A stretch of 37,264 nt of DNA from Deltaproteobacteria bacterium (GTDB lineage Bacteria; Desulfobacterota; Desulfobulbia; Desulfobulbales; Desulfurivibrionaceae): assembly GCA_026388695.1 (NCBI GenBank), contig JAPLJH010000016.1:1-37264 (forward strand), in the 5' to 3' direction. Below are positions 18,101-37,264 of this stretch, piece after piece. The notes under the pieces were generated by a model that had not been told where the DNA came from, made no database searches, and was given only the letters and a program-made list of their open reading frames with translations. Within the stretch, counting starts at the first letter, position 1, and every line of letters starts with the position of its first letter. Both the position numbers and the translations under genes were made by a program.

Positions 18101-18394
18101 CCCCGGCATGGAGGTGGTGTAGATGTATTCCACCCCAGGCAGTTCGTAGATGAGTTTTTCCATGGGGATGGAAACGCGCTCCTCCACCTCCTTGGCTGTG
18201 GCGCCGGGCATGGCGACCATGACGTCGATCATCGGCACCTTGATCTGCGGCTCTTCCTCCCGGGGCAGCATGACAACGGCTACGATCCCAAGGAGCAGGG
18301 AGGCGATGATCAGGATGATGGTCAACCTGGATTCAACGAAGATCGAGGCGAGCCTGCCGGCAAAACCGTGGTGTGTGTTTGGATGTTGGCTCAT
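15104..18394 (-). CDS. RND efflux pump permease (AcrB/HAE1-like)
   Basis: This 1096-residue inner-membrane pump has 12 expected helices and two large periplasmic loops. It begins [22 protein letters not shown]; the first porter domain has [22 protein letters not shown]4 carries the proton-relay Asp pair in [19 protein letters not shown]. The end of the second half has [15 protein letters not shown]. It resembles hydrophobe/amphiphile exporters; metal-pump (CzcA) signatures are not seen, but the substrate cannot be assigned. It is slightly longer than AcrB (1049), partly from a charged stretch around residues 510-540. Start and stop overlap the adaptor (TAATG) and DUF599 (ATGA) genes, so all form one operon. 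Confidence 0.95.
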
Positions 18395-19428
18395 TACGGC
18401 ACAATGTGTACGGGTTGGCCATCAACGAGCTGTGCGCCGCTCTGGATCACGACCTGCTCTCCGGCATTGAGGCCGGCAAGGATCTCCACCTGGCCTTCCC
18501 GGCGTTCACCGCTGCGCACCAGCCGCAAATGGGCCTTGCCGTTTTGGATTACGAAAAGCCGCTCCATCTGGCCGAAGCGCGACAGCGCCGACTCCGGCAC
18601 CAGAAAGGCGTTGACTCCAGCACCGCCTGGGAGAGCCACCCGTGCATACTGCCCAGGCTGCAAGGCAGAGGTGCCGTCGATTCGGATTTTGACCAGGGCG
18701 GTGCGTGAGGCGGTGTCCGCAGCCGGGCTGATCTCGGTCACGGTCCCGGACTTGGCAAATTCGGCGGCCGGAACAGTGACCGCCAGTGCGTCTCCTTTCT
18801 TGATTTTTAGAGCCAAACCCTCCGGCGCTGCCGCAACCACCTGCAACTGTTCGGTGTTTTCCAGCACCAGGAGAGGCATTCCAGGGGTGGCCAGGTCCCC
18901 GGTGTTGGCCGTTTTCTGGGTAACGATTCCGGCAAAGGGGGCAGTGATCACGGCGTAGTCGCGCACGGCCTTTGCCTCGCGGACACCAGCCTCGGCCACC
19001 CGGTAAGCGTCTTCCAGGGAGTTGACCGTTTCCCTTGTGGAAGCGTCTTTTTCCAGCAATCGTTTTTCGCGTTCGAAATTCCGTTGTGCCTGGGCGAGCT
19101 GCGTTTCGGCCTGGGACAACCGGGCGGTGATCTCTCCGGCACTGATTCGTGCCAGAAGTGCGCCTTTTTTTACCGCCAGACCCAGGGATATGGGCATTTC
19201 CTCGATGGGGCCGGGAACCTTGGCCGCAATGGTTGCCCGCTGGACCGACTCGACGGCGCCTGCCACTTCATTTTGCTGTAAGGCCGCTTGACCGGCCACG
19301 GTGATGATCCGCACTTCTGCGGCGGGAATCTGTTGCTCGGCTGTGCCATCGTGGGCAGGACCTTTGCACCCGACGGCGCCGAGGAGCGCGATGAAGAGAA
19401 GTGTGGGGAAAAGATGTTTGTGCAGCAT
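18394..19428 (-). CDS. RND efflux periplasmic adaptor (membrane fusion lipoprotein)
   Basis: This 344-residue lipoprotein has a signal [21 protein letters not shown], acylated at Cys21. It shows the membrane-fusion layout: a lipoyl half-motif ([18 protein letters not shown]), a coiled-coil hairpin ([23 protein letters not shown] onward), the second lipoyl half ([22 protein letters not shown]), beta-barrel, and a membrane-proximal end ([20 protein letters not shown]). It bridges the pump to the TolC-type channel. It lies 24 bases after the tolC-like gene and overlaps the pump by one base. Confidence 0.95.
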
Positions 19429-19452
19429 GGTTTAAATATCCTGTTCCAGGGC

Positions 19453-20886
19453 TTATTTGGATGCCATTGTTGTTTCAGCTTGGGGGTCTCTTGGTGCTTC
19501 CGATGTCTCCGGGAACTGCTCCAGACCCAGAGCGCGTCGCAGGTCGGCAACAGCAATGCGCTGGGAGGTCTCCGCCACGATGCGCCGTGTCTGCGCATCG
19601 GTCAGGCGATTTTCCGCTCCGAGCAGATCAGAGGCGAGGAGGTTGCCTTCCTTGAACCGGAGCCGGTTGATGCGGGCGCTTTCCTGGGCCTGGGCCACGC
19701 TTTTTTCCGTAACCTGCAAGCGCTCATTGGCGTCTTGCACGGCAAACTCTGCCTGCTTTATTTCAAGGCCGATGGCCAGCTCGGTTTTGCGTTTCCGTTC
19801 CTGCGCCTCGGCAAGCAGGGCCGATGCCTTGGCAATCTCTCCGGCGGTGCGGCCACCTTCGGAAAGATTGAACTGCAATTTGACTCCAGCCTGCCATGAG
19901 TCACCGAAGCCGTCGGTGACATAGCCTTTGTCCCCGTCATATCCGGCATATCCTTCCAGCGTTGGGTAGTAGCCGCCCTGGGCCTGCCGGACCCTGGCCT
20001 TTGCCGCCAAAATCAGGGCCTCCATGCTTTTCACCTCAGGCCGCTGGTCATGGCTGGCAGTCTGGGGAGCTTCCTGGGCGCAGCCCTGGGCGGAATCGAG
20101 AACAACCGGGCCATCGTCAAGCCCCAGCAGGCTGAGGAATATTCTGCGGCTCACCTCAAGGCCGTGTTTGGCCTGGCTGAGATTTTCCTGCGCCTTGGAC
20201 TGTTGCACTTCCAGATCAAGAAGGTCGGCTTTGAGCAGAACGCCTTCCTGATACCGGGCTTGCGCCACGGCAGTGGAAGCAGTGATTGCATCTACCGCAG
20301 ATTGCTGGGCCTTGACTAGTTCCTCCGCCTGAACGATAAGTTGGAAGGAGCGGATCACCTCAAAGGCGAGCTGGGCCTGTACTGCGGAAAGCTCCATTTT
20401 TGAGGAGACCGCCTGGGCTTCGGCAGCCTTCAGCCCGGCCAAGTCGCGGCCGCCGTTGAAAAAACGGTAGCCAAGCCGGACTCCCGCGCTCAGGGAGTCG
20501 GTGCGGCCGGGATGGTTGAAATCGATAGCGTTGTTGAATGCCCCCTGGTTCAGGATGTTGCCGAAGGAGTACATGGGATTGTTGGTCTGGTCGTATCGGG
20601 AGTTCAGGTCAAGCCTTGGGAAAAAGGAGGACCGCTCCAGGGTGATGGCGGCCTGGGCCGCTTCGATCCGGTTTTTACCCATTCGACTGTCCGGATTGTT
20701 TTTGAGGGAAAAACGCACCGCGTTGCGGACGGTCCATGCCCCTGGAGTTGCCATGGGAGTGCTTTCGACGGCATGGGAAAGGCTGGTCGAAAGCAGGAAG
20801 CCGACGCAGAGGAGACTGACCCTTCGTAGGGAGGCGAGTGGGCGATTGGTGTTTCCGGTGTGTGTGGCTTGGCAAGTCATGGTCAT
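19453..20886 (-). CDS. TolC-family outer membrane efflux channel
   Basis: This 477-residue protein has an N-terminal signal (core VSLLCVGFLLSTSLSHAVES) and two TolC-type repeats of long helices. Each begins with the usual pattern: TVRNAVRFSLKNNPDSRMGKNRIEAA and later PEVKSMEALILAAKARVRQAQGGYYP. The beta strands RLDLNSRYDQTNN and GVKLQFNLSEGG are typical barrel parts. It is first in the operon, so channel, adaptor, pump and DUF599 are made together. Two ATGs (20886, 20880) are possible; the first is given. A 34-bp palindrome lies 48 bases upstream. Confidence 0.93.
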   Translation of the reverse strand: MTMTCQATHTGNTNRPLASLRRVSLLCVGFLLSTSLSHAVESTPMATPGAWTVRNAVRFSLKNNPDSRMGKNRIEAAQAAITLERSSFFPRLDLNSRYDQTNNPMYSFGNILNQGAFNNAIDFNHPGRTDSLSAGVRLGYRFFNGGRDLAGLKAAEAQAVSSKMELSAVQAQLAFEVIRSFQLIVQAEELVKAQQSAVDAITASTAVAQARYQEGVLLKADLLDLEVQQSKAQENLSQAKHGLEVSRRIFLSLLGLDDGPVVLDSAQGCAQEAPQTASHDQRPEVKSMEALILAAKARVRQAQGGYYPTLEGYAGYDGDKGYVTDGFGDSWQAGVKLQFNLSEGGRTAGEIAKASALLAEAQERKRKTELAIGLEIKQAEFAVQDANERLQVTEKSVAQAQESARINRLRFKEGNLLASDLLGAENRLTDAQTRRIVAETSQRIAVADLRRALGLEQFPETSEAPRDPQAETTMASK

Positions 20887-25778: not shown

Positions 25779-25932
25779 CGGCGCCTCCTGAAGCTTTTCG
25801 ATGTTAGCCTTTATTGTATGGGAGAATAGCTGAAAGTGAAACATGATTTTTTCCCGTTTTTGGCAGAAAGCGTGGTAATTTTTTAGGAAGATTAGAAACC
25901 GCATCTATATATTGCGTATTTCGGAGGACGCC

Positions 25933-26718
25933 ATGGAACTGTATGCAGTCAAGCCCTACCTCTATTGGGGGGGAGTTGCCTTTTTTCTCCTGTGCGAGCA
26001 GGTTTTTTCCTACCGGGTGCCCACCGTGGCCCGCACCAGGCGCTGGCTCGCCAATCTACCGTTGTCCATTCTGAATGGCACGATCTACCATCTGCTCTAC
26101 ACCAGCGCCATTGTCGCCCTGATTCTTGCCGGGCAGGAAAGAAATCTCGGCCTGCTCAATGTCTGGCCCTTGCACGAGTGGTTTAAGATTGTCGCAGGTA
26201 TCCTGATCCTGGATTTCTTCATCTATCTCTGGCATCTGCTCACCCATGCGCTGCCCTTTCTTTGGCGGTTTCATAGGGTCCACCATAGCGATCTGAACAT
26301 GGACGTGACCACGGCCAACCGTTTCCACCTGGGTGAGTTTCTCGTCACCGGTCTGATCAGGCTGGCGGTGATCTATACCTTCGGCATCCCTCTCACCGCC
26401 TACTTCCTTTTCGAGATTCTGGTGAATATGTCCGTGCAGTTCCACCACAGTAGCATCCGGGTGCCCTCCTGGTTTGAGCGGGTGTGGGTGCTCCTTTTTG
26501 TCCCGCCTTTTTTGCACCGCATCCACCATTCGGTGCGGATCAAGGAGCGGGATTCCAATTACGGGGTGATCTTCTCTGTCTGGGACCGGATGCTGGGCAC
26601 CCTGACCACTGAGGTCGTCCAGGAAAAGATCGTTATCGGCATTGGTTCGCACCGGGAGATCGAACAATTGGGTTTCTGGCGGCTGCTGGCGCTGCCCTTC
26701 ACCCGCAATACTCCGTGA
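25933..26718 (+). CDS. Sterol desaturase/fatty acid hydroxylase family membrane protein
   Basis: This 261-residue integral membrane protein has the histidine boxes of di-iron hydroxylases: HLLTH at about 103-107, HRVHH at about 116-120 and HRIHH at about 197-201. Members hydroxylate or desaturate lipids using O2, which is notable in a genome that looks anaerobic. It may act under microaerobic exposure. ATG 25933 has a strong CGGAGG seven bases upstream. Four to five membrane helices surround the boxes. The rhodanese-rubrerythrin gene follows after 43 bases on the same strand, so the two may be co-transcribed. The substrate is unknown. Confidence 0.88.
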   Translation: MELYAVKPYLYWGGVAFFLLCEQVFSYRVPTVARTRRWLANLPLSILNGTIYHLLYTSAIVALILAGQERNLGLLNVWPLHEWFKIVAGILILDFFIYLWHLLTHALPFLWRFHRVHHSDLNMDVTTANRFHLGEFLVTGLIRLAVIYTFGIPLTAYFLFEILVNMSVQFHHSSIRVPSWFERVWVLLFVPPFLHRIHHSVRIKERDSNYGVIFSVWDRMLGTLTTEVVQEKIVIGIGSHREIEQLGFWRLLALPFTRNTP

Positions 26719-26761: not shown

Positions 26762-27583
26762 ATGAACTGGAAGAATCTGTTTGTGCCGGGTGAGGATTTC
26801 AGCGTGACCCAGGCCAAGGAGTACATGGAAGCGCGGGGGGCGGACGCGTACCAGCTGCTGGATGTCCGGCAGCCCAAGGAGTATGAGGAGGGGCATCTGG
26901 CCGGGGCCAAGCTCATCCCGCTTAAGGAGCTGCCTGTCCGGCTTGGTGAGCTGGAAAAGGGAAAGCCAGTTATTGTTTATTGCGCTGTCGGTGGCAGAAG
27001 TAAAGCCGCAGCTCAGCTCCTCGCTGGCAAGGATTTTGCAAGCGTCTACAATATGGCCGGAGGCATCAAGGCCTGGCAAGGACATCAGGCCAAGGGGCCG
27101 GAAGAGGCCGGATTGGAGTTTTTCACCGGTCAGGAAGAGTATGAGGACGGGGTGAGCCTGGCCTATGCCATGGAGGATGGGTTGCAGGAGTTTTACCGGC
27201 TCATGGCTGAGCGGGCAAAAGATGAGGAAGCGCGGCAGCTCTACACCCGTTTGATGGGCTTTGAGGATGCGCACAAGGCTCGGCTCCTCGCCGAGTACCG
27301 ACAGGCGCACGGGCTGGAGGCCATGCCAGGCAAAGCGGTGGCCGGAATCATGGAGGGCGGCACCAGGGTGGAGGCTTTTCTCGCCCAGGCCGAGGCCTAT
27401 TTGCACGGCAATCGGGATATTTTGGAGTTTGCCATGGGGCTTGAGACCCAAGCACTTGACCTATACAGCCGCATGGCGCAAAAGAGTGGGCAGCAAGAGG
27501 TTCGGGCGCTTTTTCTGCGTCTGGCCGACGAAGAAAAAGCGCATCTCGCCTATTTGGCCGATGCGCTGGACAAGGTGCTGTAA
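26762..27583 (+). CDS. Rhodanese-rubrerythrin-like fusion protein
   Basis: This 273-residue soluble protein begins with a rhodanese domain (about 12-112) carrying DVRQPKEYEEGHLAGA and the active-site loop with Cys74 in VYCAVGGRSKAA. The second half (about 130-270) is a ferritin-like four-helix domain with E-x-x-x-x-Y and E-x-x-H repeats: LQEFYRLMAERA, MGFEDAHKARLL, LETQALDLYSRMAQ and LADEEKAHLAYL. These are the di-iron ligands of rubrerythrin; the rubredoxin-like Cys4 end is missing. Such fusions occur in sulfate- and sulfur-metabolising anaerobes and probably deal with sulfane sulfur and peroxide. A kinase gene follows 43 bases on, so oxidative or sulfur stress may be the input of that system. 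Confidence 0.88.
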   Translation: MNWKNLFVPGEDFSVTQAKEYMEARGADAYQLLDVRQPKEYEEGHLAGAKLIPLKELPVRLGELEKGKPVIVYCAVGGRSKAAAQLLAGKDFASVYNMAGGIKAWQGHQAKGPEEAGLEFFTGQEEYEDGVSLAYAMEDGLQEFYRLMAERAKDEEARQLYTRLMGFEDAHKARLLAEYRQAHGLEAMPGKAVAGIMEGGTRVEAFLAQAEAYLHGNRDILEFAMGLETQALDLYSRMAQKSGQQEVRALFLRLADEEKAHLAYLADALDKVL

Positions 27584-27626
27584 ACATAAAGGCTGCGGCG
27601 CGGTCTTGGAAACAAACAGGTGGATA

Positions 27627-29138
27627 ATGGGAAATAAAAAACAGGAGTGCGGAGACGCCAGGGATGAAGAAATCAAGGCCCTGCGTCAAACCAACCTGGA
27701 GTTGCAGCAGGAGCTTGCTCAGGCCGAGCTTACGCTACGGGTTATTCCCAGCGCCGCTCTGAGCCTTGACCTGAATGGCACGATCACCAGCTGGAACAAC
27801 AAGGCGGAGCGGGTTACCGGCTTCAGGCGGGAAGAGGTGTTGGGCCATTCCTGCGATATCTTTGTTCTTCCCCCCTGCTCCCAGGAGTGCGGGGCATTTG
27901 TCGATGGTCAGGGAAAACCCCTTATGGGTAGGGTCTGCCAGATCAAAACCAAGGGCGGCAAGGTGCGGAGTGTTTCCAAAAACACCGATCTGCTTAAAGA
28001 CCCGGACGGCACGGTGACAGGGGCGGTGGTGACATTCAGGGATATCACCGAGCAGTTGGAAGTCGAGTTGCAGCTGCGCACCGAGCGGGACAAGTTTCGC
28101 GGGATTCTCTCTGCCCTCGATCAGGGCATGCACATCCTTAACCGGGATTATGTGATCGAATACCAAAACGAGATCCTGCGCCGGACCTTTGGCGACAAAA
28201 TCGGCGAGAAATGCTACGAGGTCTACAAGCAGCGCGACAAGCCCTGCGAGGTGTGCCGCATGCATGCCGCCATCGAGCGCAACGAGATCCAGCGCACCGA
28301 GGAAATTATGTCCGACCGCCGCCATTATGAGCAGAGTTATGTGCCCTTTGCCGATGTGGACGGCCAGACCAAGGCCCTGATCCTTCTGCGGGATGTCACC
28401 GAGGAAAAGATGTACCGGGCTGAAACCATGCGGGCCGGGCAGCTTGCCTCTATTGGCGAACTGGCTGCCGGGGTGGCCCATGAGATCAACAATCCCATCA
28501 ATGGCATCATCAACTACGCCCAGCTTTTGCAGGACGACCTCACCGAGGGCGACCCCGGGGCAGAGATGCTCGACCGCATTATCAAGGAAGGGGAGCGGAT
28601 CGCCTACATCGTGCGCAATCTTCTCTTCTTTGCCCGTCAGCGGGAGGAAGAAGCGGAGGTGGTCGCAATCGAGGCGATCATCCACGATTCTCTATCCCTG
28701 ATCAAGCACCAGCTCCAGAAAGACGGGGTGATCATCCACACCGATATCCCGGAGGACCTGCCGAGCATCCGGGTGCATCCGCAGCAGTTGCAGCAGGTTT
28801 TTCTCAACCTGCTCAGTAATGCAAGATACGCCCTCAATCAACGCTATCCTGGGCGGGACCCCGGCAAGAAGGTGGAAATCCGCTGTCGGGCCGTGCAGAG
28901 CCAGGGCCATGCCGTGCTTAGAACGGAAATCACCGATTATGGCGCCGGAATACCGCCGGAGCTGCTTCCCCAGATCTTTGAGCCGTTTTTTTCCTCCAAG
29001 AAACCGGGGGAAGGGACCGGTCTGGGGTTGTCCATCAGTGCCGGGTTGGTCAGAGATTTTCAGGGGGAGATTAGGGTGGAGAGCGAAGTTGGAGCACGCA
29101 CCACCCTGACCATTGATCTGCCTGCATATGAAGAGTGA
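27627..29138 (+). CDS. Soluble histidine kinase with two Cys-rich PAS domains
   Basis: This 503-residue protein has no membrane helix. It has a short coiled coil (10-38), PAS1 (about 38-140), PAS2 (about 155-258), HisKA with His285 in AAGVAHEINNPINGI, and an ATPase domain with NLLSNARYAL, DYGAGIPPE and GEGTGLGLSIS. PAS1 contains Cys76, 84, 88 and 104 (PPCSQECG); PAS2 has Cys196, 207 and 210 (KCYEVY...PCEVC). Such clusters suggest a metal centre or thiol redox sensing. ATG 27627 follows AGGTGG; the reading frame is open further upstream but overlaps the rubrerythrin gene. The sigma54 activator gene follows 45 bases later, making an NtrB/NtrC- or ZraSR-like pair. Confidence 0.92.
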   Translation: MGNKKQECGDARDEEIKALRQTNLELQQELAQAELTLRVIPSAALSLDLNGTITSWNNKAERVTGFRREEVLGHSCDIFVLPPCSQECGAFVDGQGKPLMGRVCQIKTKGGKVRSVSKNTDLLKDPDGTVTGAVVTFRDITEQLEVELQLRTERDKFRGILSALDQGMHILNRDYVIEYQNEILRRTFGDKIGEKCYEVYKQRDKPCEVCRMHAAIERNEIQRTEEIMSDRRHYEQSYVPFADVDGQTKALILLRDVTEEKMYRAETMRAGQLASIGELAAGVAHEINNPINGIINYAQLLQDDLTEGDPGAEMLDRIIKEGERIAYIVRNLLFFARQREEEAEVVAIEAIIHDSLSLIKHQLQKDGVIIHTDIPEDLPSIRVHPQQLQQVFLNLLSNARYALNQRYPGRDPGKKVEIRCRAVQSQGHAVLRTEITDYGAGIPPELLPQIFEPFFSSKKPGEGTGLGLSISAGLVRDFQGEIRVESEVGARTTLTIDLPAYEE

Positions 29139-29183
29139 ACCGTGTAATTTGTTGGGCATTGGCTTGCCTGGGGAGCAGCAATA

Positions 29184-30971
29184 ATGATTGATTTGGACAA
29201 ATCAGAGACCAGAATACTGGTAGTGGATGACGAAGAAAGCCTGCGGCTGACCTTTCAGATGTTTCTTGATCGCGAGGGGTACGGTCCGGTGCTGACCGCC
29301 TCGACCTTTGAAGAGGCCCTGGGGCTCATCGAGCAGCAGACCTTTGACCTGATTATCAGTGATATCGTCATGGAGGGGGCCTCCGGCATCGATCTGCTGC
29401 GGCGGGTCCGGGAGCTGGGATTGGAGTGCCCGATGGTAATGGTTACCGGCTATCCCAATATCAACACCGCTGCCGAGGCGGTGCGGTTGGGGGCCTTTGA
29501 CTATTTGGCCAAACCGGTGAAAAAGGCCGACCTGCTGCGTACCGCGCGCATGGCCTTGCAGCAGTATGCCCTTTGGAAGGAGAAGGAGCGGCTGACCGGT
29601 GAAAAGGAGCGTTCCCAGCAATATCTCGAAACGATCTTCCGCAGCGTCCGGGACATGATCATCACTGTTGATTATGATATGCGGGTGGTGCAGATGAATG
29701 ATCAGGCCAAGACTTGGGCGGCAATGCACATGCCTAGCCTTGCCATTGGTGCCAGTCTGGAAGAGGTTGCCGACTCCTTCACTGTGTTTGTCACCGATGC
29801 GCGGAAGGTGTTGGAATGTCGGGAAGCGGTGAGTGAGCATCGCATCGAGGTCACCCAGGAGAATGGCGGCCATGTGGTTTTTCGGCTCTGCGCGGCGCCC
29901 CTGGAAAGCCAGCATGGCAAGGACTTTCTCGGGGCGGTGTTGGTGTTCCGTGATGTGAGTCGGCTGGAAGATCTGGAAAAGCGGGGCAAGCGCACCTATT
30001 TCCACCGGTTGGCCGGGGTGAGTCGGGCCATGCAGACCGTGTACACCCTTATCGAAAACGTCGGCCAGGTGGACACCTCGGTGTTGATCACCGGAGAATC
30101 CGGGACAGGCAAGGAGCTGGTGGCCGAGGCTCTGCATGCGGAAAGCCCGCGTCGGGACATGCCCCTGGTGAAGTTCGACTGCACGTCCATCCCGGAAAAC
30201 CTGATGGAAAGTGAGCTGTTCGGCCACAAGAAGGGCTCCTTCACCGGGGCGGATCGCAACCGGGAGGGGCGGATTCTCCAGGCGGACGGTGGCACCCTGT
30301 TCCTTGATGAGATAGGCGATATCTCGCCGCTCATGCAGCTGCGGCTGCTGCGCTTTCTCCAAGAACGCACCTTCTACCCGGTTGGCGAGGATAAGCCTGT
30401 CACAGTGGATGTCCGGGTGGTAGCCGCCACCAATGCCGACCTGAAACAGAAGGTTCAGCGGGGAGAATTCCGGGAGGATCTCTATTACCGGTTGCGGGTG
30501 ATTGACATTACCTTGCCGCCGTTACGAGACCGGCAGGGGGATCTCCCTATTCTTGCGGAGTTGTTTCTGGCCCGGTTCAGCAAACGTCTGAACAAGAACA
30601 TCAGCGGGATTTCCGATCAGGCCCTGCAATTGCTTGCCGCCTACCGCTGGCCGGGAAATGTTCGGGAGCTGGAGCATGTGGTGGAGCGGGCCTGTGTGTT
30701 GTGTTCGGACGATACGATCACCACCACCAATCTTCCGGAAGAGGTGCGCAGTGGTGGCCGCACGGTCCCTGCAACACTAGGGGGTGGCGGGGCTGAAGCC
30801 GTGGCTGCCGCTGAGGCCACCGGATATGCCCCTGTCTCGCAGGAGAGCGAGAAGGCGCACATCCTCGATATCATCGCCCAGACCGACGGCAACAAGGCCA
30901 AGGCTGCCAGGCTGCTTGGTATTGACCGCAGTACCCTGTACCGAAAAATGAAGGCATACGGCTTGGAATAG
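29184..30971 (+). CDS. Sigma54-dependent response regulator (REC-PAS-AAA+-Fis)
   Basis: This 595-residue NtrC-type activator has a receiver with acid pair Asp15/16, phospho-acceptor Asp60 and Lys110. A PAS domain (about 143-258) is inserted between receiver and ATPase, which is uncommon and could add a second signal. The AAA+ domain has Walker A GESGTGKE (304-311), the sigma54-contact loop GSFTGA (351-356; GAFTGA is the consensus), and Walker B LFLDE (372-376). A Fis-type helix-turn-helix (about 555-595) ends the protein. It opens sigma54 promoters from distant sites. Candidate sites begin three bases behind its stop codon, and three -24/-12 promoters lie in the next 3.3 kb. Confidence 0.96.
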   Translation: MIDLDKSETRILVVDDEESLRLTFQMFLDREGYGPVLTASTFEEALGLIEQQTFDLIISDIVMEGASGIDLLRRVRELGLECPMVMVTGYPNINTAAEAVRLGAFDYLAKPVKKADLLRTARMALQQYALWKEKERLTGEKERSQQYLETIFRSVRDMIITVDYDMRVVQMNDQAKTWAAMHMPSLAIGASLEEVADSFTVFVTDARKVLECREAVSEHRIEVTQENGGHVVFRLCAAPLESQHGKDFLGAVLVFRDVSRLEDLEKRGKRTYFHRLAGVSRAMQTVYTLIENVGQVDTSVLITGESGTGKELVAEALHAESPRRDMPLVKFDCTSIPENLMESELFGHKKGSFTGADRNREGRILQADGGTLFLDEIGDISPLMQLRLLRFLQERTFYPVGEDKPVTVDVRVVAATNADLKQKVQRGEFREDLYYRLRVIDITLPPLRDRQGDLPILAELFLARFSKRLNKNISGISDQALQLLAAYRWPGNVRELEHVVERACVLCSDDTITTTNLPEEVRSGGRTVPATLGGGGAEAVAAAEATGYAPVSQESEKAHILDIIAQTDGNKAKAARLLGIDRSTLYRKMKAYGLE

Positions 30972-30973
30972 AA

Positions 30974-31028
30974 TAGCAGAGTGTTGCACCCGCAACACTC
31001 TGCTACACATGCAACAGCAAAAGTGTTG
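30974..31028. promoter_or_regulatory. Candidate activator binding cluster A (GTGTTGC/GCAACAC)
   Basis: A perfect palindrome with 14-bp arms, TAGCAGAGTGTTGC (30974-30987) and GCAACACTCTGCTA (30992-31005), has a 4-bp spacer. GCAACA (31011-31016) and GTGTTGC (31023-31029) follow. The core TGT-N10-ACA form is like upstream activator sites of NtrC-family proteins. It lies about 280-330 bp before the predicted sigma54 start. No T-run follows the palindrome, so a simple terminator is less likely, although the RNA could still fold as a 3' hairpin. Confidence 0.6.
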
Positions 31029-31223
31029 CTCCGCAATCTGCGGTGCCACACTTTTATATTTTCCCCTCCCTGTTTTCCTCCTGCCATCCCTCTGTTGTAG
31101 ATTTTCTTGGATTATCCTCGGTATTATCTCGTAACATTCTGATATAAAAAGATTTTTTTACCTTGTGGTCGGCTCGGTACCCCTCTCTTTTTCCGGCGGC
31201 AGATTCTTTTTTATTTCCTTTGT

Positions 31224-31236
31224 TATCAAATAGTTA
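31224..31236 (+). promoter_or_regulatory. IHF consensus site
   Basis: TATCAAATAGTTA is an exact match to WATCAANNNNTTR. It sits about 70-82 bp before the predicted sigma54 transcription start, between the activator cluster and the promoter, where IHF-induced bending usually helps looping. About one exact match per 37 kb is expected by chance, so position is the main argument. Confidence 0.55.
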
Positions 31237-31278
31237 AATCCATGGATTGGAAAATTGCCCCCTGTTTTCGGGGAGGTG

Positions 31279-31296
31279 TTGGCACACCCTGTGCAA
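31279..31296 (+). promoter_or_regulatory. Sigma54 promoter of the small membrane protein operon
   Basis: TTGGCACACCCTGTGCAA has the invariant GG (31281-31282) and GC (31293-31294) at the correct 12-bp offset and a perfect TGGCAC -24 box. The expected start is near 31306. It shares TTGGCA and TGTGC with the promoter at 34232. Confidence 0.85.
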
Positions 31297-31363
31297 TGTC
31301 TCCTAATCAAACGAGATCAACATCGTGATAAGAACGAAAAAACAAAACCATAGGAGGCTCACC

Positions 31364-31579
31364 ATGAAGAACACATTGCAAAAACAAGGACTCGGTCTTG
31401 GCGAAATTGATCAGGCAGCAATCGGTGAGGGAATCTCTCAGGCAGGTGTAGCAGTCATCCTTACCTTGGCAACATTGATCGGTGTATGGGGCATTGCCTG
31501 TCTGATCGGCGGGATGAGCTCCATGGGTGGGGTCATGGAGCTGGGCCGGGGCTGGCTCACCGCAGTAACGGGGATGTAA
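31364..31579 (+). CDS. Small single-pass membrane protein, unknown function
   Basis: This 71-residue protein has an excellent ribosome site (AGGAGG, six bases before ATG). A polar start (MKNTLQKQGLGLGEIDQAA) is followed by one hydrophobic helix (about 27-50, AGVAVILTLATLIGVWGIACLIGG) and a short Gly-rich tail. I do not recognise a family. It is the first gene behind a sigma54 promoter and forms a two-gene unit with the next small membrane protein, closed by a terminator. Size and context fit a regulatory or assembly subunit of a membrane complex or a client or adaptor of the adjacent FtsH, but neither role is shown by the sequence. Confidence 0.8.
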   Translation: MKNTLQKQGLGLGEIDQAAIGEGISQAGVAVILTLATLIGVWGIACLIGGMSSMGGVMELGRGWLTAVTGM

Positions 31580-31651
31580 GCAGGCGAAAAATACGATAGC
31601 GATCATATTTAGGATCATAGGGATAAACTAATTTTCACAAGGAGAAGCATC

Positions 31652-31960
31652 ATGGCAAAGGCAACAGCAGAAAACAAGGGCGCAGGAGTCTTCATGGCAA
31701 TAATGGGCGGTATCGGTGCGGCCGTTGGCTTGTGGGCGCTTGCCGCCCTGAGTCTCAGCCTTTCCAAGGCGGGGTTGAGTGAAGTAGCGCGGCAGTACAT
31801 GGTGGCCATCGGCCTGATCAGTGAGCAGGCAACCCTGGTGGATTTTTACACCCACATTAAAGGCGTGGAGTACTTGGTATGTCTCGCCTTCTTCGCAGCA
31901 TTCCCGGTATTTTTTAAGTATGTCAACACCCCGAAGGTTACGGTTCCCGGCCAACGCTGA
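31652..31960 (+). CDS. Small two-pass membrane protein, unknown function
   Basis: This 102-residue protein follows the first small gene by 72 bases and has a good ribosome site (AAGGAG). It has two membrane helices: about 13-36 (VFMAIMGGIGAAVGLWALAAL) and about 71-88 (YLVCLAFFAAFPVFF). The intervening loop is mildly amphipathic, with SEVARQYMVAIGLISEQATL. No conserved catalytic or metal motif is visible and I do not recognise a family. A terminator follows 22 bases after the stop, so the two small genes make their own transcript, separate from ftsH. Confidence 0.8.
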   Translation: MAKATAENKGAGVFMAIMGGIGAAVGLWALAALSLSLSKAGLSEVARQYMVAIGLISEQATLVDFYTHIKGVEYLVCLAFFAAFPVFFKYVNTPKVTVPGQR

Positions 31961-31982
31961 TAACCTTGTAGTACCTCCCCTG

Positions 31983-32009
31983 AGCCCGGGTTCGCCCGGG
32001 CTTTTTTTT
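31983..32009 (+). terminator. Intrinsic terminator after the two small genes
   Basis: A perfect 8-bp GC-rich stem AGCCCGGG/CCCGGGCT with a TTCG tetraloop, followed by a run of T to 32009. This is a strong rho-independent terminator and separates the small-gene operon from ftsH. Confidence 0.95.
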
Positions 32010-32049
32010 GCCGTTTTTTCATGGGAACTGGCAGACTGGCACAGCTGCA

Positions 32050-32066
32050 TGGTCCGGTTGTTGCAA
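32050..32066 (+). promoter_or_regulatory. Possible sigma54 promoter of ftsH
   Basis: TGGTCCGGTTGTTGCAA has GG (32051-32052) and GC (32063-32064) at the correct offset and a perfect TTGCA -12 box; the -24 box is weaker (TGGTCC). The expected start near 32076 is about 51 bases before ftsH. The -12 lies inside the 10-bp palindrome TGTTGCAACA (32059-32068), and TGTTGCA recurs at 32074, the same half-site as in clusters A and B. Confidence 0.45.
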
Positions 32067-32126
32067 CATATCCTGTTGCACAACGCATTCATTCTGTATC
32101 GTACCCATTCTGTCTCGGAGGAGATC

Positions 32127-33935
32127 ATGGCCAAATACGTGCGAAATTATTTGCTGCTTATGCTGGCGGCAATCCTGGTCGTTGTCGCGTATAACGTCTG
32201 GATTGTGGAAAACCGTCCCCCCATGCTCGAATATTCGGGGTTTCTTGTCAAACTGGACAATAACGAGATACAGACAGCGCGGATACAGGGTCAGGAGATC
32301 AGCTCCACGGACAGCTATGGCCAGGCATTTTCGACCTATGTCCCGGATGTGCAGCTTCTGCTTCCCAGACTTGAGAAAAAGAATGTCCGCATTTCCGCCA
32401 AGGCGCCCCAGGGGGCTTCGCCTTTCTGGGCGTCAACCTTCCCGGTTCTCCTGCTCATGGGCGGCTGGATGTTTTTCATGCTCCGCAACCAGAAAGGCGG
32501 GAGTAGCGGTTTTGGCAAAAAAAAGATCGCCACGGATCCGGACAAAACCAGGCGGGTGACTTTTGACGATGTAGCTGGCATCCCGGAGGCCAAGGAAGAG
32601 CTGGTCGAGATCGTGGACTTCTTGAAGGATTCCAAGAAAATCACTCGCCTCGGCGGTAAGATTCCTAAAGGGGTAATGCTGCAAGGCCCCCCTGGAACCG
32701 GGAAAACCCTGCTGGCCAAGGCTATTGCCGGGGAGGCAGGCGTTCCTTTTTATAGCATCAGCGGCTCTGATTTTGTCGAGATGTTTGTCGGGGTCGGCGC
32801 CTCGCGGGTGCGCGATCTTTTTGCCCAAGCCAAGAAAAGCGCGCCCTGCATTGTCTTTATCGATGAAATTGACGCGGTGGGCCGCAGCCGAGGGGCTGCC
32901 GGGGCCATGGGCGGCCAGGATGAGCGGGAGCAGACCCTCAATGCCTTGCTGGTGGAGATGGATGGTTTTCAGAGCGATCAAACCGTCATCATCGTAGCGG
33001 CAACCAACAGGCCGGATGTGCTGGACCCGGCCTTGATGCGACCGGGCCGGTTTGACCGTCAGGTCACCATCATGCCTCCTGATGTTAAAGGGCGACGCAA
33101 GATTCTCGAAGTGCATTCCCGCAACGTGATGATGGATCCAGACGTTGACCTGCAGATCGTGGCCCAAGGCACGCCGGGGTTCACCGGCGCCGAGCTTGCC
33201 AACCTCATCAATGAGTCTGCCCTGATGGCAGCGCGCAAGGGCAAGGAGGGAATCCAGCTCAGCGATATCGAGGATGCCAAGGACAAGATCCTCATGGGCG
33301 CGGAGCGAACCGGACTGGTTATCAGCGAACAACAGCGCAAGGTCACGGCCTACCATGAAGCTGGGCATGCGATCATCGCCAAGGTCCTGCCAAACACCGA
33401 TCCGGTGCATAAGATCACCATTATCCCCAGGGGCCAGGCCATGGGGGTTATGCAGCAGATGCCCATTGATGATCGCCATGCCTATTCCAAGGAATATCTG
33501 ACCAACCGGATCACCATCCTGCTTGGCGGCAGAACATCGGAGGAGATTATCTTTAATGAATTTTCCACCGGCGCCAGCAACGATTTGCAGGTGGCCACGG
33601 ATATCGCCACCCGTATGGTCTGCGAATTTGGCATGAGCGAACGGCTTGGGCCACGGGCCTTTGTTACCCCGGATCAGGGATTCCTCGGCCTCGGCTCGCG
33701 GCAGCGGCCTTACAGTGAAGAGATCGCCAGGGCCATTGATGAAGAGGTCACCCGAATTATCGCGGAGTGCTATCAGGAGGCGATCATTGTTCTTGAAGGG
33801 CGGATAACCTTCCTGCACAAGCTGGCAGAGGTGCTTCTGCTCAATGAAACCATTGATGCGGAAGAGGTTGATATCATCGTGACCTGCCCCAAATTGACCG
33901 AAGAAAATAAAGCGCAAACCGGGTTGTCCAGTTAG
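32127..33935 (+). CDS. ftsH: ATP-dependent zinc metalloprotease FtsH
   Basis: This 602-residue membrane AAA+ protease extracts and degrades membrane and some soluble proteins. TM1 is at about 8-25, a small periplasmic domain spans 26-100 and TM2 about 101-119. The AAA module has Walker A GPPGTGKT (187-194), pore loop [10 protein letters not shown], Walker [11 protein letters not shown] and arginine-finger region MRPGRFDRQ. The zinc motif is HEAGH (410-414), with a third ligand expected in the [15 protein letters not shown] helix. ATG 32127 follows CGGAGGAG; the frame is open 102 codons upstream but crosses the terminator. Most FtsH genes lie beside tilS/folP or hpt; here it sits inside a sigma54 gene cluster, so it may be a dedicated second copy. 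Confidence 0.95.
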
Positions 33936-33957
33936 GCCGGTCACATTTTGGGCAACC

Positions 33958-34003
33958 TGTCGCATGCAACACTTCTGTCGCGCCACATGTGTTGCATGCG
34001 ACA
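33958..34003. promoter_or_regulatory. Candidate activator binding cluster B (GCAACAC/GTGTTGC)
   Basis: Perfect 15-bp arms, TGTCGCATGCAACAC (33958-33972) and GTGTTGCATGCGACA (33989-34003), are separated by 16 bp. Each arm is itself near-palindromic (TGTYGCATGCRACA), so two dimers could bind three turns apart; the right one fits TGT-N10-ACA (33988-34003). It shares GTGTTGC/GCAACAC with cluster A and lies about 280 bp before the predicted cytochrome promoter start. No T-run follows, so it is not a usual terminator for ftsH. Confidence 0.6.
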
Positions 34004-34026
34004 CTACTTTGCCGCGTTGCACAATG

Positions 34027-34040
34027 TCATCGCGCGATGA
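34027..34040. promoter_or_regulatory. Palindrome TCATCGCGCGATGA
   Basis: A perfect 14-bp palindrome, with a further half-site GCGATGA at 34051-34057. It is unlike the GTGTTGC motif and may be the site of another regulator of the cytochrome operon. There is no direct evidence of binding. Confidence 0.35.
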
Positions 34041-34231
34041 AACTCTGTGTGCGATGATCTTTTTTATCCCCGTTCGATAATTTCTCCCCGTCTGCCATTA
34101 CCCCTACGGAATTGTTGTTTCCCCGCAGTTCGGTTTTTCCGCAGGTATTGCCCGGCATTCCGAGATCCTCTCAGCTTTGGATTTTTGTCTCAGAGTGTGG
34201 CATCAGCCATTAGTGTCCTCCGAGATAATGG

Positions 34232-34249
34232 TTGGCATAGGATGTGCTT
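34232..34249 (+). promoter_or_regulatory. Sigma54 promoter of the cytochrome-ferredoxin-NrfD operon
   Basis: TTGGCATAGGATGTGCTT has GG (34234-34235) and GC (34246-34247) at the required offset and TGGCAT as -24 box. It parallels the promoter at 31279 (TTGGCA, then TGTGC). The expected start near 34259 gives a long leader of about 133 bases. Confidence 0.8.
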
Positions 34250-34391
34250 AAACAGATTCTGGGATTCTCTGAACGCCGCCTGAAGAGGGCTGTAAGCCTA
34301 GCCCGGGCGAAGGGCATTTCCTCTAGTCGCACTGATAATGCAAACGGAGTTTGTTTTTTTTACGAGATTACTTTTTCAGAAGGAGAGCAAC

Positions 34392-34925
34392 ATGGGAGGA
34401 AGAAAGAAAACACTCTTGGGCATGGCAGCGCTGATGCTCCTGACCGCGCCTCTTGCCGCGCAGAGTTGGGCCGCAGAAGGCCCTGGCACGGTGGAGCTTG
34501 GCAGCTTGGCAAATCATTATTCCGCAGTGACCTTTGATCATGCCATGCATACTGGGGTGGCGGCAAGCTGTGCTGAATGCCATCACCACACAACCGGGCT
34601 CGCGCCCATCGATCCAAACTGCGCCCGGTGTCATAAAGCTGGGGACAAGGCGAACAGGGTTGCCTGCAAGAGTTGTCATTCAGACAAGCGCTTTTCCGCG
34701 GAAGATCTGGCAAAAATTGAGGGAAATCCGCTGCTGCACCACAAGGGGAAGCTTGGCCTGAAAGGGGCCTATCACCAGAAATGTCTTGGTTGCCACACCG
34801 CCATGGGTGGACCGACTGGCTGTCAGGATTGTCATACCCGCAACGACAAGGGGGATGCCTTTTTTCATTCGGGCAAATACACCCCGGCTCCTAAGGCTTC
34901 CGCCGAGCATGGCGGCGGTCATTGA
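34392..34925 (+). CDS. Periplasmic pentahaem c3-type cytochrome
   Basis: This 177-residue protein has a Sec signal (MGGRKKTLLGMAALMLLTAPLAAQSWA, cut near residue 28). Five CxxCH haem motifs start at Cys60, 77, 92, 131 and 144 (CAECH, CARCH, CKSCH, CLGCH, CQDCH). Surrounding His residues (42, 50, 53, 65, 66, 116, 117, 128, 159) can provide second ligands. The spacing resembles class III cytochromes, which usually have four haems, so five is unusual. It should carry electrons in the periplasm and pass them to or from the ferredoxin/NrfD partners downstream. ATG 34392 has AAGGAG upstream; an earlier ATG (34338) would break the signal peptide. Confidence 0.9.
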   Translation: MGGRKKTLLGMAALMLLTAPLAAQSWAAEGPGTVELGSLANHYSAVTFDHAMHTGVAASCAECHHHTTGLAPIDPNCARCHKAGDKANRVACKSCHSDKRFSAEDLAKIEGNPLLHHKGKLGLKGAYHQKCLGCHTAMGGPTGCQDCHTRNDKGDAFFHSGKYTPAPKASAEHGGGH

Positions 34926-34980
34926 TTGAAAATCTCAGAGGCTTGGAGTTTACGCTGAAACGATATCAGAGGGTTACACT

Positions 34981-35907
34981 ATGAAAAAGTTAAACCGCAG
35001 AAGTTTCTTGAAAGGCGGACTGGCCGGTGGCGCTGCCATCGCCGCCGTCGGAGCAAGCAAACAGGCCGTGGCCGGAACGCATAATTTTGGCGGCTATCCG
35101 GACAGTATGGGCGTGCTTGTTGATCTTACCAAATGTGTCGGCTGTCGTACTTGCGAAGCAGCCTGCAATAAGGAGCAGGACCTGCCCGAGCCGGACAAGG
35201 CATTTGACGACCCATCGGTGTTTGAGGAGAGGCGCGAGGGTGGCCTGCCGAGAAGGACAACGGAAAAGGCTTACACCGTCGTGCAGAAATATGATGTGCC
35301 GGGCCGGGAACACCCGCTTTTTCGCAAGGTGCAGTGCAACCATTGCAACGAACCTGCCTGCCTGACCTCCTGTTTTGTCAATGCCTACAAGAAGACACCG
35401 GAAGGCGCAGTTATCTACGATAAGACCGTGTGTGTCGGCTGCCGGACCTGCATGGTCGCTTGTCCCTTCTATATCCCGGCCTACAGCTATTCCAGCGCCA
35501 TCAACCCGGTGGTGAAAAAATGTATCATGTGCTACGACACCCGCCTCAAGTTTGGTCGGCCGCCTGCATGTGTCGAGGCTTGCCCCCAGGAAGTCATGAC
35601 CTTCGGCAAGCGCAAGGATCTCCTCAAGCTGGCCCATCAGCGGATCAGCGATAAGCCTGATGCCTACGTGGACCATGTGTATGGAGAAAACGAGGTTGGC
35701 GGCACGGCCTGGATGTATCTCTCAGACGTGCCCTTTGACAAAATTGGCTATGACACCCATCTGGGAACCCAGCCGATCATCAGTTATGTCAAGGAGTTCC
35801 TTGGGATGGTGCCGATGGTTCTCACCATCTGGCCTGCGCTTTTTACCGGTTTTCATTTGCTGAGCAACCGGAAAGACGCACTGAAAAACGACGATAATAA
35901 AAGCTGA
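34981..35907 (+). CDS. Tat-exported 4x[4Fe-4S] ferredoxin subunit (HybA/HmcB-like)
   Basis: This 308-residue protein has a twin-arginine signal (NRRSFLKGG, residues 5-13) followed by a hydrophobic Ala/Gly stretch, so it folds with its clusters before export. Cys groups for four [4Fe-4S] clusters are visible: CVGCRTCEAAC, CNHCNEPACLTSC, CVGCRTCMVAC, and CIMCYD with CVEACP. A C-terminal membrane helix (about 276-295, FLGMVPMVLTIWPALFTGF) anchors it, as in HybA and HmcB. It should relay electrons between the cytochrome and the NrfD subunit. It is 55 bases behind the cytochrome gene and 16 bases before nrfD. Confidence 0.92.
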   Translation: MKKLNRRSFLKGGLAGGAAIAAVGASKQAVAGTHNFGGYPDSMGVLVDLTKCVGCRTCEAACNKEQDLPEPDKAFDDPSVFEERREGGLPRRTTEKAYTVVQKYDVPGREHPLFRKVQCNHCNEPACLTSCFVNAYKKTPEGAVIYDKTVCVGCRTCMVACPFYIPAYSYSSAINPVVKKCIMCYDTRLKFGRPPACVEACPQEVMTFGKRKDLLKLAHQRISDKPDAYVDHVYGENEVGGTAWMYLSDVPFDKIGYDTHLGTQPIISYVKEFLGMVPMVLTIWPALFTGFHLLSNRKDALKNDDNKS

Positions 35908-35923
35908 GGAGAGGTGGAAGACG

Positions 35924-37174
35924 ATGAATAGCTTAAAATCACAAGGGTTCGCCCCTGTTGTCTCCGATCTCAAAAAAGATGGGAGCGAGTGGACCGTAAA
36001 AGAGAAGATTATGTTGGGGCTCAGCCCCAAAGAGTATTGGGCGGTTCAGCTCCGCAACCCGTTCAACTGGGTGCTCTGGGCCATTTATGCCATCGGGCTG
36101 CCGATCCTGGTGGGTCGGTTTATCTTTGGCCTGGGCTGGGTCACGCATTCCTCCTATGATTATCCTTGGGGGTTGTTTCTGGGCTGGGGGTTGTTCACCA
36201 TGGTGCCGCTTTCCGCTTCCGGCTTCATGATGGGAACCACGGTGGAGCTTTTTGGCCGTAAGGACTTCAAGTCCATTGAGCGGCTTGGGCTGCTGAACGG
36301 GCTTCTTGGCTATACGTTCGCGGTCATGTTTTTGCAGGTGGATCTTGGCCAGCCCTGGCGTCTGATCTACCCCATGTTCGTTTCTCTGGGACCGGCGGCC
36401 GTTCTGTTTCTCGTGGCCTGGCATGTGGCCACCTATCTTACTTGTCAGGTGGCGGAGCTGGTCCCCGCCTTTTCCGAGTGGATGGGTTTCCCCAAGGCCA
36501 AGAAGTTCATTAAGAGCATCGTTCTCGGCTTGACCATTGCCGGGATTATCCTTTCTACCTTGCATCAGGGGGCACTGGGTGCGTTGTTCACTTATGCTCC
36601 AGGCAAGGTGCATCCGCTCTGGTATTCCTCGCCTTTTCAGTGGCTGCACTTTTTCGTTTCCGCAGTGTTTGCCGGGTTGTCCATGCTCATTGTTGTCAGC
36701 ACCTTAACCAAATGGTTCATGCGCTGGCGGTGTGATGAAAATTATCTGAACAATCTCAGCAAACTGACCCTGGGCCTGGCCAAGGGCGCTTCCATGGCCT
36801 TGATCACTTATCTGGTCATCAAGATCATCGGGATTGCCCATGACAATAACTGGGCGTATCTGCTCACCGGTTGGGGCGCCTGGTTTATGTTCGAGATGGT
36901 GGTGGGCGTTATCCTACCGCTGATTTTCTACACCATGGCCGTGCGGAACAGCAATGCTTCCCTGGCCCGTTTCGCTGCGATTCTGGCGGTATTTGGGATT
37001 GCCTTGAACCGGTTGAACACGGCGCTCATTGCCTTCAACTGGCAACTGTATCGGGAAATCCCCCACTGGCGTGAATTGGTGATCGTCTTCACCGTCTATG
37101 CCACCTATATCGTGGTTTATCGCGCAGTTCTGGCCAGGATGCCGATTCTGTACACCTGGAAGGAAAAGAAGTAG
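35924..37174 (+). CDS. NrfD/HybB-family quinone-interacting membrane subunit
   Basis: This 416-residue integral membrane protein has about ten helices (for example LWAIYAIGLPILVGRFIFGL, WGLFTMVPLSASGFMMG, GPAAVLFLVAWHVATYL and IVFTVYATYIVVYRAVL). It matches HybB/HmcC-type members of the NrfD family, which exchange electrons and protons with menaquinone and have no haem of their own. A HybB-like FNRLNTALIAFNW-type stretch appears near the end (NRLNTALIAFNWQLY). With the ferredoxin and cytochrome it forms a three-part periplasmic quinone module. No hydrogenase or molybdoenzyme gene is in the window; further subunits could follow beyond it, although the gap after the stop suggests the operon may end here. 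Confidence 0.92.
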   Translation: MNSLKSQGFAPVVSDLKKDGSEWTVKEKIMLGLSPKEYWAVQLRNPFNWVLWAIYAIGLPILVGRFIFGLGWVTHSSYDYPWGLFLGWGLFTMVPLSASGFMMGTTVELFGRKDFKSIERLGLLNGLLGYTFAVMFLQVDLGQPWRLIYPMFVSLGPAAVLFLVAWHVATYLTCQVAELVPAFSEWMGFPKAKKFIKSIVLGLTIAGIILSTLHQGALGALFTYAPGKVHPLWYSSPFQWLHFFVSAVFAGLSMLIVVSTLTKWFMRWRCDENYLNNLSKLTLGLAKGASMALITYLVIKIIGIAHDNNWAYLLTGWGAWFMFEMVVGVILPLIFYTMAVRNSNASLARFAAILAVFGIALNRLNTALIAFNWQLYREIPHWRELVIVFTVYATYIVVYRAVLARMPILYTWKEKK

Positions 37175-37223: not shown

Positions 37224-37264
37224 GCAACTTGCAAATCCGGGCTGAGACAAATGGCATTTCCACT

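Follow-up and report, generated by a model that had tools for sequence, protein, structure and literature searches.

A candidate sigma54 regulon centred on an Hmc-like membrane redox complex in a member of the Desulfobulbales

Introduction

Can a two-component system, a pair of small membrane proteins, an FtsH protease and a quinone-cytochrome complex that are encoded side by side belong to one sigma54 regulon? The question is raised by a stretch of 37,264 nucleotides (nt) from a Deltaproteobacteria bacterium of the family Desulfurivibrionaceae (contig JAPLJH010000016.1 of assembly GCA_026388695.1), hereafter called the window. The window makes up the whole of C94, one of 114 contigs of a genome of 2.58 Mb that is about 87% complete and contains rpoN (TIGR02395, 438.2 bits, cut-off 277.35). 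Open reading frames (ORFs) and Pfam and NCBIfam matches reveal the sensor kinase HK1 and the REC-PAS-AAA+-Fis response regulator RR, followed by three units, which comprise the genes of the small membrane proteins sm1 and sm2, ftsH, and the genes of a pentahaem cytochrome (cyt), an HmcB-like and an HmcC-like protein (Table 1). The gene content that an earlier note had read from the DNA is thus borne out. We consider it likely that the locus forms a sigma54 regulon with an Hmc-like membrane redox complex at its centre. In the following, L and C numbers denote fetched genomic stretches and contigs, respectively, and f numbers are anonymous family labels.

Conservation of the locus

The locus was compared in 55 stretches, of which 40 were fetched around sm2 in other lineages and 14 around RR (L032-L045), the window being the remaining one. 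The order ftsH-cyt-hmcB-hmcC is collinear in 30 of them, window included, and 27 of these 30 also carry RR (L073 and L042 are the same region, and both are counted here and in the promoter analysis). Since the stretches had been picked by sm2 or RR, the presence of these two genes is built in, which does not apply to the order of ftsH, cyt, hmcB and hmcC. Among 257 genomes of the order, relatives of sm2 were found in 123 and matches to RR at E 1e-120 in 160; both occur in 107 genomes, sm2 only in 16, RR only in 53 and neither in 81 (Fisher p = 9.8e-16, without kinship correction).

The regulon had been described as self-contained. This description fits the window's own, incomplete genome, in which sm2 is a single-copy gene and the half-site arrays described below are, as far as tested, confined to the locus, while sm1-like genes also occur elsewhere. 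It does not fit the relatives, which contain dispersed sm1-sm2 pairs with the same promoter and half-sites. In many f6/f7 loci, sm1-sm2 pairs follow hmcC, with additional pairs that are either solitary or arranged in tandem.

Sigma54 promoters

As had been claimed, a -24/-12 match precedes each of the three units (Table 1). The sites were scored by a scheme with hand-set weights and a cut-off of 19, which is reached by 12 sites on both strands of the window. By sequence alone the three promoters are therefore unexceptional, and they are credible because they are conserved across relatives. A score of at least 19 at 40-130 nt before the ATG is found in 65 of 74 distinct sm1 upstream regions, as compared to 60 of 5000 random 90-nt windows. 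L097 accounts for one of the nine misses, its site at 52 nt lying just past the limit; by our own reading, the remaining eight are second sm1 genes of a tandem module. Within 400 nt, the cut-off is reached upstream of ftsH in 18 of 34 and upstream of cyt in 18 of 31 cases, some of these sites being far off (L102, L103; L076); the control regions upstream of RR and HK reach it in 1 of 31 (L081) and 2 of 22 cases (L044, L080), respectively. Moreover, IHF-like sites are enriched in the sm1 upstream regions (22 sites in 20 of 74 regions; shuffled mean 1.7, maximum 8), and the 31 RR controls hold three (shuffled mean 0.5, maximum 3).

Two arrangements in other stretches are worth recording. In L044 (10962-12511), HK, RR and ftsH follow each other without sm1-sm2 in between, and a sigma54-like site, in form and distance like a real promoter, lies 62 nt before HK. 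In other orders, only three of 13 upstream regions of HmcD-like genes reach a score of 19 (L127, L128 and L137). L127 and L128 have near-perfect sigma54 promoters before HmcD-like-cyt-hmcB-hmcC, with an RR on the opposite strand and 0 and 1 TGTNGC sites, and perhaps a different activator site is used there.

Half-sites and upstream arrays

De novo expectation-maximisation on 33 sm1 upstream regions, taken singly from hand-picked loci of which two lie in the same genome, yielded the motif AaGTGTkGCA, which is the half-site of the earlier note, with about 206 sites and a log-likelihood of 421 versus 46-76 for shuffled sets. The training set included the sm1 region of the window and neither its ftsH nor its cyt region. 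With the resulting matrix, 7, 3 and 7 sites are found in the sm1, ftsH and cyt regions of the window, i.e. 17 in 1014 bp versus 1.88 per kb elsewhere. Across the loci, sites of at least 7 bits occur at 19.9 per kb upstream of sm1, 9.1 upstream of cyt and 4.4 upstream of ftsH, with 2.4 and 1.7 per kb in the RR and HK controls; at least one such site is present in 33/33 sm1, 24/31 cyt and 25/34 ftsH regions.

Counts of short motifs agree with the matrix. When both strands are compared with dinucleotide shuffles, TGTNGC occurs 372 times upstream of sm1 (mean 75.8), 97 times upstream of cyt (mean 26.9) and 44 times upstream of ftsH (mean 21.9, maximum 35), and the RR and HK controls stand at 18 (18.3) and 8 (13.5). 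For GTGTKGCA, the counts are 88 versus 4.2 for sm1, 30 versus 1.0 for cyt, 1 versus 0.5 for RR and 1 versus 0.4 for HK. Among the 74 sm1 upstream regions, GTGTTGCA is present in 35 (0.5 in mononucleotide shuffles) and GTGTGGCA in 26 (0.6). GTGTKGC is found in 61 of the 74 and in each of the seven families sampled; relatedness inflates such motif counts, and the spread over seven families and the controls answer this only partly, not formally. Of 30 cyt upstream regions, 12 contain the palindrome TGTNGC-N2-GCNACA, at 23 places that give 46 matches when both strands are counted (shuffled maximum 0). The layout of two TGTNGC-AT-GCNACA palindromes separated by 18 bp is common to the window (33958-34003) and L079, and variants occur in L075, L081 and L099.

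Half-sites had been claimed for all three control regions of the window. The exact 7-mers GTGTTGC/GCAACAC lie at 30981, 30992 and 31023 in the sm1 region and at 33966 and 33989 in the cyt region; the ftsH region has 6-mers only (32059, 32063 and 32074), partly within the -12 element. The three remaining 7-mers of the window are outside the control regions (21997, 22790 and 30771). At orthologous loci, where the earlier note had proposed to look for conservation, the half-sites are enriched above chance upstream of sm1 and cyt, and weakly so upstream of ftsH.

As a genome-wide marker, the strict palindrome GTGTDGC-N2-4-GCHACAC was discarded because of its rarity, as 5 of 9 genomes had a single site each. 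The looser TGTNGC-N2-4-GCNACA has seven sites in the window's own genome, three of them in the window (reversed-pattern control, one). The palindromes on C28, C53, C74 and C105 were rejected as targets: they lie in stop-to-stop frames of 166-507 codons, in 3-kb loci without a strict sigma54 match, a pattern that would also miss the ftsH promoter of the window.

Sensor kinases and activator

In the aligned rows that reach it, the helix-turn-helix (HTH) of RR (window sequence, GNKAKAARLLGIDRSTLYRKMK) shows strong conservation, with minor changes such as GFDRST or IDRTT. RR scores under the curated NCBIfam cut-offs for ntrC, atoC and zraR, and its named relatives come from metagenome-assembled genomes of Desulfobulbaceae/Desulfurivibrio. 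The two PAS domains of HK1 contain seven cysteines (residues 76, 84, 88 and 104; 196, 207 and 210), which are kept in 75-100% of the 20-24 rows reaching them. These cysteines are compatible with a redox or metal sensor. The term "redox two-component system" used earlier goes beyond this observation, the redox part having been read from the conserved cysteines.

The gene list can be extended by a second sensor, HK2, which starts about 76 nt past hmcC in the window and in L033; only its first codons lie inside the window. The HK2 sensor domain was located after hmcC in 23 of 38 stretches searched. A structural model of the L033 copy (predicted local distance difference test score, pLDDT, 83) resembles the NarQ sensor fragment: the five best structural matches are all NarQ at E 0.0074-0.018, none falling under E 0.001, and the template modelling (TM) score against 5jef_B is up to 0.74. 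HK2 may thus be called a NarQ-like membrane sensor by fold resemblance, which is no evidence of nitrate sensing. A profile search of the PDB with HK2 gave nothing convincing. The kinase part is variable in Pfam searches (HisKA and HATPase over cut-off in L099, GAF and a sub-threshold HATPase in L033, no match in L093). Another kinase, cluster c14, lies near the cluster in L076, L080, L081, L099, L100 and L109; the L081 copy has a Tll0287-like domain and one member a CxxCH motif.

Small membrane proteins

Both small membrane proteins were confirmed, and their description can be refined. Neither sm1 nor sm2 has a Pfam match at E 0.01 or an NCBIfam match at E 0.001, and their profiles cross-match. 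The sm2 profile finds matches in 38 of 395 genomes of the phylum; most of those outside the order cover only the C-terminal half, and the weakest may be due to chance. Among 18 stretches from elsewhere in the phylum, nine (L123-L131) encode a free-standing HmcD-type protein of 53-77 amino acids (aa) directly before cyt-hmcB-hmcC. A longer HmcD-type protein stands before cyt in L133 and L134, and the HmcD-type protein precedes hmcB in L135 and follows hmcC in L132. In L137, a complete sm1-sm2 pair occurs together with FtsH, RR and the complex. Scores against the HmcD model NF045712 (cut-off 34) are 67 bits for L132, 38.3 for L135, 28 for L139, 24.5 each for L124 and L125 and 13.6 for L131, and the sm2 profile reaches L132 at E 3.6e-9. 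By way of these intermediates, sm2 can probably be classed as an HmcD-type subunit with an added N-terminal transmembrane segment related to sm1, which itself belongs to a multi-copy family. No useful Foldseek match was obtained with a model of sm2 (pLDDT 75, predicted TM-score 0.39), no match in a PDB profile search and nothing convincing in a PHROGs profile search.

The sm1 profile finds matches in 42 of 58 relatives, at up to 11 places each, many of them paired; some may be the N-terminal half of sm2. Some sm1 pairs or triples are preceded by TGGCACG-N4-TGGCA or a near variant, with an unusual -12 element, and by few half-sites (L176-L179, L182, L185, L187-L189 and L193); a kinase and an RR are nearby in some, and another activator perhaps reads them. 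In L123-L126, L129 and L131, another small protein with a signal peptide and a transmembrane segment (by eye) precedes the HmcD-like gene and is possibly an sm1 analogue. In L136 (8163-8909) and L139 (7878-8588), an HmcD-like transmembrane segment beside hmcB/hmcC runs into a further domain, which is GcvH-like (PF01597) in L139.

FtsH and the Hmc-like complex

The FtsH of the cluster contains the FtsH_ext (PF06480), AAA (PF00004) and M41 (PF01434) domains, and its HEXXH motif reads HEAGH in the sequence. In all, five M41 proteases were identified in the genome. A single origin of the cluster FtsH found no support, as two changes would be needed and a paralogue from the same genome, L152, falls beside the window arm. 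In f6/f7 loci, a protein of cluster c13 is encoded between RR and ftsH, or before ftsH (L077, L089, L092, L093, L098, L101 and L106); the zinc ribbon of an IS1595 transposase is present in the L098 copy, and the protein is perhaps a domesticated transposase.

The cytochrome, which is probably periplasmic, retains five CxxCH motifs in 28 of 28 aligned rows and matches the HmcA model NF045713 partially (38 bits, cut-off 400). The HmcB-like and HmcC-like proteins also score below their curated cut-offs (Table 1).

Proposed mechanism and competing explanations

From the gene content, synteny, promoters, half-sites and HmcD relationship, as read from the sequence, we infer a model in which the binding of RR, the use of IHF, the signal, the stoichiometry, the direction of electron flow, the substrates of FtsH and the protein functions are conjectural. 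HK1 would report the redox or quinone state, and HK2, encoded with the complex, would probably do so as well. Phosphorylated RR would bind the AaGTGTkGCA arrays roughly 100-300 bp upstream and activate RpoN polymerase at the sm1-sm2 and cyt-hmcB-hmcC promoters, perhaps also at ftsH, probably assisted by IHF bending. The products would form a complex of the pentahaem cytochrome, the HmcB-like Fe-S protein, the HmcC-like quinone subunit and the HmcD-type subunit sm2. The protein sm1 would act as a small, paired partner, and membrane subunits that are damaged or fail to assemble would be cleared by the dedicated FtsH. That a single sigma54 activator serves the small proteins as well as the cytochrome complex is favoured because promoters, arrays and the activator HTH are conserved together and because sm2 and RR co-occur.

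Several observations weigh against this model. In f6/f7 loci, the sigma54 score is below 19 in 12 of 14 ftsH and 13 of 14 cyt upstream regions, and the same is true for ftsH in L044, L074, L076 and L108. Thus, a regulon of three units is not universal, and in f6/f7 sigma54 control seems, from these scores, to be limited to the other units. GTGTKGC is missing from 13 of 74 sm1 upstream regions, and 16 of 31 RR and 9 of 22 HK control regions also hold at least one 7-bit half-site; as single half-sites are common by chance, the argument rests on density. On its own, sm2 reaches only 13 bits with NF045712. The 16 genomes with sm2 and no RR match at 1e-120 and the 53 with RR and no sm2 may in part be explained by incomplete genomes and RR paralogues. 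Furthermore, another NtrC-family activator could read these sites, and the model infers binding and expression from sequence. Perfect 14-bp arms just past the RR stop codon, and also AAAAGTGTTGC...GCCACACTTTTATATTTT, would fit a role of the inverted repeats at 30974-31060 in terminating transcription of the RR gene rather than in binding. We find this reading very improbable, since half-sites of the same kind lie, in several orientations and at several spacings, before cyt and before solo sm1-sm2 pairs that have no RR upstream.

The claim of one activator for all units holds better for sm1-sm2 and the cytochrome complex than for ftsH, whose promoter is conserved in part of the lineages and whose half-sites are few and overlap the promoter. 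It is conceivable, if rather unlikely, that the half-sites and the activator control only the former two, with ftsH being constitutive or under another activator. GTGTKGCA occurs only 3 times upstream of ftsH (shuffled mean 0.8, maximum 5), and TGTNGC-N2-GCNACA palindromes are absent there. However, the ftsH promoter retains the GG/GC spacing in f1, f8, f9 and f13 loci while other bases change, and activators can act from a distance. The core might instead be an sm1-FtsH membrane-proteostasis module, often sigma54-controlled, with the Hmc-like complex as one client or passenger among several. Among 20 further sm1 stretches and C44 of the window's own genome, sm1-like genes adjoin an FtsH of 50-58% identity in five of 21 (L154, L183, L184, L190 and L194), none with an hmcC match; L190 also encodes an RR (55% identity) and carries sigma54 promoters as well as 7 and 5 half-sites. 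This recurring link, together with the many places of sm1 in a genome, keeps the proteostasis-centred explanation alive at a low probability. On the other hand, 16 of the 21 stretches, some of them short contigs, lack an FtsH match at 50% identity, and the HmcD-type domain ties the window's sm2 to the complex. Moreover, no convincing sigma54 site or half-site array was found in L154 (C44, 3776-10846), which encodes two sm1-like proteins, an FtsH paralogue (57%), a NapC/NirT-type cytochrome, and a membrane kinase with a short REC-HTH_8 regulator, which we take to be RegB/RegA-like; a molybdopterin oxidoreductase gene precedes the locus on the opposite strand.

The regulon around the Hmc-like complex remains our preferred explanation. 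More tentatively, it may be part of a membrane quality-control response of Desulfobacterota, in which paired sm1-family transmembrane proteins would either be partners of FtsH or help, under its regulation, to assemble quinone-cytochrome complexes, and dispersed copies would be under sigma54 activators sensing redox through the complex itself (HK2). Electron transfer, assembly and turnover would then form one feedback loop.

Genomic neighbourhood

The rhodanese-rubrerythrin gene before HK1 is a neighbour in stretches of the window's own family (f1) only, and its membership in the system is uncertain (tblastn matches in L033-L035, L037-L041, L045 and L075). A hairpin similar to that after sm2 was seen by eye 3' of sm2 in L038 and L042. 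Further upstream lies a fatty acid hydroxylase-family gene (25912-26718), which occurs in eight stretches including the window, one of them (L074) from another family. An RND efflux set (AcrB-type pump, HlyD-type adaptor and outer-membrane factor) occupies 15104-20886 on the minus strand.

Table 1 Features of the locus in the window
Feature	Position	Strand	Basis or remark
Rhodanese + rubrerythrin/ferritin-like protein	26762..27583	+	Pfam PF00581, PF02915
HK1, PAS-PAS-HisKA-HATPase sensor kinase	27627..29138	+	Pfam, alignment
RR, REC-PAS-sigma54 AAA+-Fis HTH activator	29184..30971	+	PF00072, PF00158, PF02954
sm1 upstream array, six half-sites of 10.3-14.3 bits, including palindrome GTGTTGC-N4-GCAACAC at 30981-30998	30979..31053	.	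De novo matrix
IHF-like site TATCAAATAGTTA between array and promoter	31224..31236	+	Motif match
Putative sigma54 promoter of sm1-sm2, TGGCACACCCTGTGCA	31280..31295	+	84 nt before ATG
sm1, 71 aa, one predicted transmembrane segment (by eye), multi-copy family	31364..31579	+	ORF, profile searches
sm2, 102 aa, with sm1-like N half and HmcD-type C half (TLVDFYTHIKGVEYLVC)	31652..31960	+	Profile searches
Terminator-like hairpin + T tract after sm2	31983..32009	+	Read directly in sequence
Putative sigma54 promoter of ftsH, TGGTCCGGTTGTTGCA	32050..32065	+	77 nt before gene
Three half-site matches near ftsH, first overlapping -12 element	32056..32080	.	De novo matrix
FtsH	32127..33935	+	TIGR01241 768.3 bits, cut-off 600
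Cytochrome-unit upstream array, two TGTNGC-AT-GCNACA palindromes 32 bp apart	33955..34006	.	Read + matrix
Further half-site GAGTGTGGCA before cytochrome unit	34193..34202	+	De novo matrix
Putative sigma54 promoter of cyt-hmcB-hmcC, TGGCATAGGATGTGCT	34233..34248	+	159 nt before gene
Pentahaem c-type cytochrome	34392..34925	+	Five CxxCH
HmcB-like Fe-S protein with twin-arginine (TAT) signal	34981..35907	+	NF045715 408.7 bits, cut-off 420; PF10518
HmcC-like NrfD-family membrane subunit	35924..37174	+	NF045714 363.9 bits, cut-off 550; PF03916
HK2, first codons (MAFP)	37251..37264	+	Contig end; full gene in L033 from 17227, same MAFP start

Comparison with known systems

In NtrC/AtoC/ZraR-type systems, a REC-AAA+-Fis activator with a neighbouring kinase acts through palindromic upstream sites. 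The window has all of these elements, whereas its RR has an internal PAS domain, another half-site and other targets, and scores below the curated cut-offs. In the Psp response, PspF and sigma54-controlled membrane proteins are found. Sigma54-controlled membrane proteins are also predicted here, but the window has a two-component REC activator, FtsH and a redox complex, and sm1 and sm2 lack Pfam and NCBIfam matches at the thresholds used. The Hmc complex of Desulfovibrio consists of HmcABCDEF. The window shares with it HmcB-like and HmcC-like subunits and a probable HmcD-type small subunit (NF045715, NF045714 and NF045712). It differs in the five-haem cytochrome in place of the 16-haem HmcA, in the absence of hmcE and hmcF between hmcC and HK2 (the search for these two genes did not extend to other parts of the genome), in the added sm1-like transmembrane segment of sm2, and in the linked FtsH and sigma54 activator. 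The Hmc gene set is also named in PMC5109826.

No paper joining HmcB, FtsH and Desulfo, or FtsH, small membrane proteins and sulfate-reducing, was found in the literature search. Nor is such a system described in the accessible parts of PMC4641369, PMC3333781, PMC12316311, PMC6303296, PMC2702500, PMC5109826 and PMC13047784; subscription papers were mostly uncovered, so that absence from print is unproven. If the regulon holds, a respiratory complex whose role in sulfur-cycle bacteria is unsettled is provided with a concrete code of activator, sites and promoters, in an arrangement that recurs across an order of these organisms. From this code it can be predicted which of the dispersed gene pairs are members of the regulon, so that it is directly testable. 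Moreover, the locus connects the complex with a dedicated FtsH and draws attention to a widespread family of small membrane proteins without a Pfam or NCBIfam match here.

The closest precedent is the enhancer-binding protein DVU3142, which is predicted to control ohcBAC in Desulfovibrionales (Kazakov et al. 2015, PMC4641369). In both cases, a sigma54 enhancer-binding protein lies beside, and is predicted to control, a cytochrome-quinone complex, so that sigma54 control of such a complex is already known. To this extent, the earlier statement that no system with this gene set has been described, which agrees with the literature searches, has to be qualified. The Ohc system differs in the complex and in the activator being divergent from one ohc operon; neither FtsH nor a small-protein family appears in the section concerned, and a term search of the main text of PMC4641369 returned no FtsH, Hmc or NrfD. 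As far as our searches reach, the novelty of the present locus lies in its gene set, its half-site, the link to FtsH and the family of small proteins.

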